Assembly (NCBI RefSeq): GCF_000332175.1
Contig: NZ_KB235914.1
Location: 2,414,868-2,478,867 of the forward strand
Length of the DNA: 64,000 nucleotides
Source of the DNA: Pseudanabaena sp. PCC 6802
GTDB lineage: Bacteria > Cyanobacteriota > Cyanobacteriia > Pseudanabaenales > Pseudanabaenaceae
Reading direction: 5' to 3'
Shown here: in pieces, positions 57,653 to 60,228 of the stretch
How positions within the stretch are numbered: the first letter of the stretch is position 1
Layout of the letters: every line of letters starts with the position of its first letter
Notes under the pieces: generated by a model
The model's input: the letters and a program-made list of their open reading frames with translations, nothing else
The model's database searches: none
Told to the model about the DNA's origin: nothing
Program-made: the position numbers and the translations under genes

Positions 57653-58714
57653 ATGACCATAGCAATGGGACGGTCGCAGCAAGCCGAACGAGGATGGTTT
57701 GATGTCCTCGATGACTGGCTAAAGCGCGATCGCTTTGTATTCGTTGGCTGGAGTGGTCTGCTACTCTTCCCAACCGCATTTCTAGCAGTTGGTGGCTGGA
57801 TGACGGGCACCACATTCGTTTCTTCCTGGTATACCCACGGATTAGCTTCTAGCTATCTTGAAGGTTGTAACTTCCTGACCGCAGCGGTATCGACACCATC
57901 GCTGAGCATGGGTCACTCCATTCTGTTTCTCTGGGGACCAGAAGCCCAAGGCGACTTTACTCGTTGGTGCCAAATTGGCGGTCTGTGGACGTTTGTTGCC
58001 CTGCACGGTGCATTTGGTTTGATCGGCTTTATGCTGCGTCAGTTTGAAATTGCCCGCCTGGTTGGGATTCGTCCTTATAACGCGATCGCCTTTTCCGCTC
58101 CGATCGCAGTATTTGTCTCAGTTTTCTTGATGTATCCTCTGGGACAGTCTGGCTGGTTTTTTGCTCCTAGCTTTGGCGTAGCTGGCATTTTCCGCTTCAT
58201 CCTATTCGTGCAAGGCTTTCACAACTTTACGCTTAACCCCTTCCACATGATGGGGGTAGCAGGCGTTCTTGGCGCTGCTCTACTTTGTGCTATTCACGGT
58301 GCAACCGTAGAAAATACTCTGTATCAAGATGGTGAAGGTTCAACTACTTTTACGGCATTCAGTCCTACACAAGCTGAAGAAACCTACTCCATGGTTACCG
58401 CTAACCGCTTCTGGAGCCAGGTTTTTGGTATTGCTTTCTCTAACAAGCGCTGGCTGCACTTCTTCATGTTGTTTGTACCTGTGATGGGCTTGTGGATGGC
58501 CAGTATTGGGATTGTTGGCATCGCGCTCAACCTGCGAGCTTATGACTTTGTATCTCAGGAAATTAGAGCTGCAGAAGATCCAGAGTTTGAGACTTTCTAT
58601 ACCAAGAACTTGATCTTAAACGAAGGTATTCGTGCCTGGATGGCTACTCAAGACCAACCTGCTGAGAAGTTCGTCTTCCCCGAAGAAGTTCTACCTCGCG
58701 GTAACGCTCTGTAA
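57653..58714 (+). CDS. psbD: photosystem II D2 protein
   Basis: 353 aa. D2 binds the secondary half of P680, QA and the non-heme iron. Canonical parts are [40 protein letters not shown], the Fe/QA ligand [20 protein letters not shown], and the end [22 protein letters not shown]. The ATG at 57653 follows TTTAGAGGGTTTAATTT, with AGAGGG as ribosome site. The codon for the third-last Arg is CGC, which removes the GTG start that psbC uses inside psbD in most species. psbC begins 122 bases after the psbD stop. Confidence 0.98.
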
Positions 58715-58734
58715 GCTGTTCGTTGCTCTATTGG

Positions 58735-58777
58735 CAATTAGCTGTCAGCGTTTACTAAAATTGCTGATAGCTAATTG
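58735..58777 (+). other. hairpin in the psbD-psbC spacer
   Basis: CAATTAGCTGTCAGC (58735-58749) and GCTGATAGCTAATTG (58763-58777) pair over 15 bases with one mismatch. It has no T-run directly after, so it is more likely an mRNA-stabilising or processing structure than a terminator. The AGCTGTCAGC core recurs near 4171. Confidence 0.75.
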
Positions 58778-58836
58778 TTGTTAAGCATTTAAGATTATTT
58801 GTAAGAATAAGCAATTTTTTTAGGAGATATTCCCTA

Positions 58837-60228
58837 GTGACGACGACTATTAACTTCAATTCATTGGGGGTAGGCGGACGTACTCAAGACACATCTGGTT
58901 ATGCCTGGTGGTCTGGCAATTCTCGCCTGATTAACCTATCTGGCAAGCTGCTGGGTGCTCACGTTGCCCACGCTGGCTTGATCGTATTCTGGGCAGGCGC
59001 TATGTGCCTATTTGAGGTCGCCCACTTCGTCCCCGAAAAACCAATGTACGAGCAAGGTTTAATCTTGCTCCCTCACCTTGCTACCCAAGGCTGGGGTGTT
59101 GGCCCTGGCGGTGAAGTAGTTGATACTTTTCCCTACTTTGTTGTGGGTGTTGTACACCTGGTTTCCTCTGCCGTACTCGGCCTTGGTGGGATTTACCATG
59201 CCATTCGCGGTCCCGAAATCTTAGAAAACTACTCATCTTTCTTTGGTTACGACTGGAAAGACAAAAACAAGATGACCAACATTATTGGGTTTCACCTAAT
59301 CGTGTTGGGTCTAGGAGCTTTTCTGTTAGTGCTCAAGGCAATGGCTTTTGGCGGTCTTTACGATACCTGGGCACCAGGCGGTGGAGACGTTCGTTTAGTA
59401 ACCAATCCCACAATTAACCCCCTGGTTATCTTTGGTTATCTTTTAAGCTCTCCCTTTGGTGGATCGGGCAACATGGTTGGGGTTAATAACCTCGAAGATG
59501 TTGTAGGCGGTCACATTTGGATCGGTATCATCTGTATTAGTGGTGGTATCTGGCACATTTTAACCAAGCCTTTTGGTTGGGCTCGTCGTGCTTTAGTGTG
59601 GTCGGGTGAAGCTTATCTTTCCTATAGCTTGGGTGCGGTATCCTTAATGGCATTCATTGCTACCTGCTTTGTCTGGTTTAATAACACTGTTTATCCAAGC
59701 GAGTTCTTCGGGCCTACTGGTCCTGAAGCTTCACAAGCACAAGCGTTTACTTTCATCGTCCGAGACCAGAAGCTAGGTGCTAACATTGCTACTTCTCAAG
59801 GGCCTACTGGCTTAGGTAAGTATTTGATGCGCTCTCCTACTGGTGAAATTATTCTTGGTGGTGAAACCATGCGCTTCTGGGACTTCCGTGGCCCCTGGTT
59901 GGAGCCTCTGCGCGGTCCAAATGGAATAGAGATTGACAAATTTAAGAATGATATTCAGCCTTGGCAAGTTCGCCGTGCTGCTGAATATATGACACACGCT
60001 CCTTTGGGTTCGCTGAACTCTGTTGGTGGCGTTATCACTGAACTCAACGCCGTTAACTTTGTTTCGCCTCGTTCCTGGTTGGCTACTTCTCATTTCGTGC
60101 TGTTCTTTATGTTCTTGGTGGGTCACCTCTGGCACGCAGGTCGCGCTCGCGCTGCTGTAGCTGGTTTTGAGAAAGGTATCAACCGCAGCACTGAGCCAGT
60201 TCTATCCATGCCCGAGTTAGACAAGTAA
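58837..60228 (+). CDS. psbC: photosystem II CP43 protein
   Basis: 463 aa from a GTG ([20 protein letters not shown]), with AGGAGA about 10 bases upstream. CP43 is the inner antenna that also ligates the Mn4CaO5 cluster: the large lumenal loop E is intact ([20 protein letters not shown], with the Glu and Arg ligands in [11 protein letters not shown]-type context). Six membrane helices and the ending [20 protein letters not shown] are standard. Loop E excludes IsiA/Pcb. Unlike most cyanobacteria and plastids, it does not overlap psbD. The first 14 residues do not match the common N-terminus; homology starts at G-G-R. Confidence 0.97.

Follow-up and report, generated by a model that had tools for sequence, protein, structure and literature searches.

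Separation of psbD and psbC in Pseudanabaenaceae and its recurrence among cyanobacteria

In Pseudanabaena sp. PCC 6802 the psbD and psbC genes are adjacent on the same strand with psbD first, yet the psbC frame does not begin inside psbD as it does in the overlap of about 16 nt found elsewhere. This locus raises the question of how the two genes came apart and which codon now starts psbC. The overlap has been called conserved across Cyanobacteria, and a connection with the origin of heterodimeric photosystem II has been drawn (PMC8047818). It is present in most cyanobacteria and all plastids (PMC9325196). The psbC start is GUG in both Synechocystis and tobacco (PMC9845219), and tobacco mutants in psbD translation show little effect on PSII (PMC8133689). 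A literature search whose coverage excluded subscription journals and supplements found no paper on the split in Pseudanabaenaceae.

The window is the whole stretch of 64,000 nucleotides that was analysed. On its forward strand psbD (D2, 353 aa, assigned from open reading frame and sequence) occupies positions 57653-58714 and psbC (CP43, 463 aa, GTG start) positions 58837-60228, with a 122 bp spacer (58715-58836) between the psbD stop and the psbC start. The psbD 3' end reads GAA GAA GTT CTA CCT CGC GGT AAC GCT CTG TAA (58682-58714, forward strand), with CTCGCGGTAACGCTCTGTAA at 58695-58714. The Shine-Dalgarno (SD) sequence of psbC, AGGAGA, occupies 58822-58827 and is separated from the GTG by 9 nt, and an N-terminal segment of 20 residues (58837-58896) precedes the conserved GYAWW. 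The psbD end, the GTG at 58837 with its own AGGAGA and the gap of 122 bp had been read in the same way in the initial annotation and were confirmed from the sequence. Two further observations made there were also borne out: the GCG at 58698-58700, the position equivalent in sequence comparison to the psbC GTG of overlapping genomes, and an old psbC frame of 28 codons that ends at a stop at 58782-58784. The psbD tail carries GAAGAAGTT and lacks the psbC SD (GAGG, in the second Glu-Val codons). Neither the GAG(G) ribosome site nor the CGT(GG) that serves psbC initiation in overlapping genomes is present at this 3' end.

The genome (5.62 Mb, six contigs, 99.7% complete) gave a single D2-type match and a single psbD 3' end. 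It also contained a single psbC, the remaining CP43-family matches being psbB-like or isiA/Pcb-like. A second psbDC locus, the presence of which would have made the window pair a side copy, was not found; with one psbD and one psbC in the genome, the psbC of the window is the working CP43 gene. The pair differs from the FaRLiP-cluster paralogues psbD3 and psbC2 in being the genome's only pair, made up of standard psbD and psbC. The closest named relatives by CP43 were Pseudanabaena species and MAGs at 86-90% identity. A cluster of isiA/Pcb-like CP43 relatives (L003-L006) lies elsewhere in this genome (G000 C5:2986437-2996145); one member has an open frame of 511 residues and an adjoining fragment is broken by TAG.

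The separation of psbD and psbC is real, family-wide and recurrent in cyanobacteria, and is not special to one organism as had been supposed at first. The junctions of 22/22 Pseudanabaenaceae species were split, as were further named Pseudanabaena loci, with 83-268 bp between the psbD stop and the GTG, and these loci formed one CP43 clade (SH-aLRT 99). A junction pattern allowing any CGN codon was scanned across 386 genomes of the phylum and matched 137 of them, with CGT in every match. By hand count, 186 genomes belonged to the same class, 49 of which had no match, and loci from non-matching families were then inspected individually. Prochlorococcus-like loci (L057-L062) and a Gloeobacter-like locus (L063) overlap with GTG but were missed by the pattern through other residues or fell outside it. 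True splits were found in families f5 (probably Thermostichales), f17, f19, f25, f29, f37 and f38 and in Chamaesiphon. At least seven further families of the class thus contain the split, and the overlap is kept in Gloeobacter and most of the rest. As in the window, these pairs have an SD of their own, a GTG start and a spacer, here of about 85-190 bp, in which a stem-loop usually follows psbD. No complete psbD end lies close upstream of psbC in f26 (L046/L156) and L044. Five of the 137 matches (L151-L155, all from genus g34 of f25) are relics and not overlaps: each has a near-intact relic, and a complete second end of psbD is found 156-162 bp before psbC starts. At least 22 of about 180 class genomes were split or unlinked by hand count.

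On a CP43 tree, a quick one with weak deep resolution, the split trait required seven changes or more, of which well-supported branches force three. Both states occur within each of families f17, f25, f26 and f29, which is an independent argument for several events. Two loci, L120 (Filamentous cyanobacterium CCP5, ~2496-2557) and L126 (Nostoc sp. CHAB 5715, ~2469-2539), keep the overlap with CGC and have no psbC GTG; their tails resemble psbD2 sequence, as expected of gene conversion or an assembly chimera. Three class genomes of 2.8-3.1 Mb (G182, G216 and G300) had no intact psbC and are possibly those of non-photosynthetic endosymbionts.

The change from CGT to CGC had been taken as the loss of the old psbC start. 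Three of the 22 Pseudanabaenaceae species (L019, L027 and L030) keep CGT in psbD and are split nonetheless, which shows that this substitution is not what defines the change. All psbD 3' ends in 68 genomes were listed and sorted according to whether psbC starts inside them. In overlapping ends, Arg was CGT and the second Glu GAG in 63/63 cases each, and Gly was encoded by GGT or GGA alone. Free ends, those of monocistronic psbD copies (psbD2), had CGT in 25/59 and GAG in 24/59, and Pseudanabaenaceae ends had CGT in 3/22 and GAG in 0/22, the second Glu being GAA in all 22. Fisher's test put p for the contrast at or below about 2e-14, calculated over species that are not independent. It indicates that the overlap freezes the ribosome site and start codon within psbD and that splitting releases both. 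CGC is a consequence of the released constraint rather than the cause of the split. CP43 is affected as well: residue 2 was only Val or Glu in 30 distinct overlapping contexts, and after the split f1, f5 and f17 have Thr there, whereas f19 and f38 have Gln.

The origin of the present psbC start can be read from other split lineages. In f17, f19, f25, f29, f37 and f38 the leader of psbC is what remains of a psbD tail (GAGGTTCTACCGCGTGGTAACGC...), and hence the ancestral GTG has been retained in these families with a second psbD end now upstream of it. The f25 leader, TTGGAGGTTCTACCGCGTGGTAACGCTCTCTAATTC, is a nearly intact psbD tail (EVLPRGNAL*), and the actual psbD end lies about 150 bp upstream. 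The relic leaders of f37, f29 and f38 read EEVIPCGNAL, EEVIPGGNTL and KEVLPRAN, respectively. At L044 a decayed psbD tail of 41 residues, ETFYTKNNLLREDI..., runs to the psbC start (tblastn E 9.6e-8), and psbD itself is gone from the site. As in f25, a full psbD end with freed codon choice is present upstream in the window.

Most other split families retain a readable psbD-tail relic and a second psbD, whereas Pseudanabaenaceae have neither: a decayed or longer relic was sought in their spacers and was not found, and a single psbD was present in 21/21 genomes searched. The geometry of the psbC start is nevertheless that of the ancestor. Scanning the split loci for in-frame GTG codons preceded by an SD gave a GTG start in 58/58. 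GGAG lies about 10 nt before the psbC GTG in every Pseudanabaenaceae locus read, as in the overlap. Their CP43 has 19-21 residues before GFAWW, compared with 17-21 in nearly all overlapping genes and 24 in one. The N-terminus of the window, described in the initial annotation as unlike the common one over about 14 residues, is not of a new length and ends in a recognisable GGR.QD.SG motif. The first ten residues in Pseudanabaenaceae showed no significant similarity to the ancestral N-terminus. At the nucleotide level, the ten-base leader was nearer to the ancestral one than shuffles were (p ~0.003), a value that is too good because the genera are not independent. The same limit applies to its being nearer than 24 control sites, also measured over ten bases in related genera; the similarity was absent in genus g6 (L031).

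From the invariable GTG, the GGAG spacing, the N-terminal length and the likeness of the leader, we infer that Pseudanabaenaceae may have followed the same relic route as the other split lineages, with only moderate sequence support in this family. The GTG at 58837 is then most likely the ancestral psbC start. In the ancestral arrangement both this GTG and its ribosome site would have lain within the last psbD codons. A second psbD 3' end would have been placed upstream of the psbC start in the ancestor of the family, through either tandem duplication or recombination between psbD copies. The old tail, now serving only as psbC leader, would have decayed, leaving just the GGAG site and the GTG at their original spacing. 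The psbD tail in use, relieved of psbC initiation, could have drifted to GAA and CGC, and the intervening DNA would have become a spacer, which has a stem-loop immediately beyond psbD. We consider it probable that the split arose through such a second psbD end, with the start at 58837 retained and the tail freed. The history first proposed for this locus, in which the ancestral GTG became GCG and psbC restarted downstream, is probably wrong, since other split lineages keep the ancestral GTG; that lost-start history is probably inverted.

Recombination between psbD copies is the likely mechanism and is active: where a second psbD exists, the copy linked to psbC and the unlinked one are nearly identical as far as the stop codon and show no relationship beyond it. 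They were 100% identical over the last 60 bases in G098, G046, G245, G164, G229 and G027 and unrelated beyond the stop codon in split lineages; in the overlapping genome G192 they were only 87% identical over the same length. Pairs identical to the stop were L042/L167, L047/L166, L048/L170, L052/L168, L045/L169 and L054/L172. Carriage of the psbD2 3' flank into the split locus was rejected, because the paralogues match to the stop codon and not beyond. Given the single psbD in 21/21 Pseudanabaenaceae genomes, a donor copy is not seen in the family today.

The lost-start history can be restated as an insertion in the first psbC codons which, together with CGT to CGC, killed the old start, a new start and ribosome site arising beside the CP43 body. 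The old frame still reads AVTL... before its stop after 28 codons, the first ten CP43 residues of Pseudanabaenaceae differ from the common ones, and psbD is single across the family, all of which would suit this account. We regard it as unlikely, as the psbD-tail relics reveal another route in several lineages, GTG is found in 58/58 split loci, in Pseudanabaenaceae at the SD distance and with the N-terminal length of the ancestor, and relatives that retain CGT are split nonetheless. It is quite unlikely, too, that psbC uses another start codon or is fully coupled to psbD by read-through, so that the split has no consequence for expression. The genes do share a strand and a short spacer with no clear sigma-70 promoter (window spacer and L021). 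However, a strong SD and start are kept in all relatives and protein conservation begins there, and the gaps in termination-reinitiation coupling are usually much shorter than 122 bp.

That the split is the older state, kept in the early-branching Pseudanabaenaceae and f5 while the overlap arose later elsewhere, is very improbable. Both early-branching groups are split and have MT-type N-termini in common, but the Gloeobacter-like outgroup has an overlap with identical bases and GTG, the direction shown by the relics is from overlap to split, and the overlap also occurs in plastids (PMC8047818, PMC9325196). The initial annotation was thus right that the overlap has gone here from an overlapping ancestral state, the Gloeobacter-like L063 retaining CCCCGTGGAAACG. 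An assembly or gene-calling artefact is barely conceivable: some loci elsewhere (L120, L126) look chimeric, but the layout is identical in all independent Pseudanabaenaceae assemblies read, single-contig ones included.

The hairpin noticed in the spacer is real. It comprises about 18 pairs with arms at ~58731-58749 and ~58763-58780 (58731-58780, forward strand), shortly 3' of the psbD stop, and gave z = -4.5 for the spacer and -2.4 for the wider region 58690-58860 against dinucleotide shuffles. A stem-loop follows psbD in 7/7 Pseudanabaenaceae genera read (p ≤0.04 except in g6, 0.067) and in most other split lineages. Within genus Pseudanabaena it covaries strongly, 11/14 pairs having changed on both sides; the overall covariation score was reached by 0/500 shuffles and slid pairings fail. 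In this genus a second stem element of about 110 nt, conserved in sequence, adjoins the stem-loop upstream of psbC (L021 1288-1503 and 18 other Pseudanabaena spacers, alignment A1). Its core, AGTTTTTRGATTATGATG...TCATCAAAC, occurred once per genome in three genomes of the genus and in none of the other genomes searched. On the simplest reading the spacer may consist of a psbD 3'-end stabiliser or a weak or partial terminator, in the form of the stem-loop, and a psbC leader.

Other functions of the spacer were also considered. A search for sigma-70 promoters in the window spacer and in L021 gave none above chance, and an Rfam scan of the spacer gave no family above threshold. A small hairpin masking the psbC ribosome site was no better than shuffles (p = 0.06) and was rejected, as was a dispersed repeat formed by the stem-loop arms, since GCTGATAGCTAA has just five exact copies genome-wide. 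Within psbC, Rfam IsrR (RF01419) matched the antisense strand at 59254-59440 of the window. IsrR scored 115-175 bits antisense to every psbC tested and to both isiA-type loci (L021, L041, L049, L054, L003 and L004), which points to psbC/isiA paralogy. As psbC outscores isiA, IsrR annotations placed on psbC are probably artefacts of paralogy.

Compared with the overlapping psbDC operon, the window has the same genes, order, strand and GTG start, and likewise an SD followed by about ten bases and the GTG. It differs in its 122 bp stem-loop spacer, in a ribosome site outside psbD and in the unconstrained codons of the psbD tail. Translational coupling of psbD and psbC would have been lost in Pseudanabaenaceae. 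With psbC translated from its own ribosome site, the level of CP43 synthesis need not depend on termination at the psbD stop. A different D2:CP43 ratio, as proposed in the initial annotation, might follow. Tentatively, recurrent splitting might exchange the fixed coupling of the overlap for a spacer whose psbD 3' stem-loop is under selection, plus a long conserved structured psbC leader in genus Pseudanabaena, and so give separate control of D2 and CP43 synthesis. The existence of Pseudanabaenaceae and at least seven other families without the overlap indicates that it is dispensable. The split lineages are natural tests of the role of the overlap, and they reveal the codons that it had frozen.
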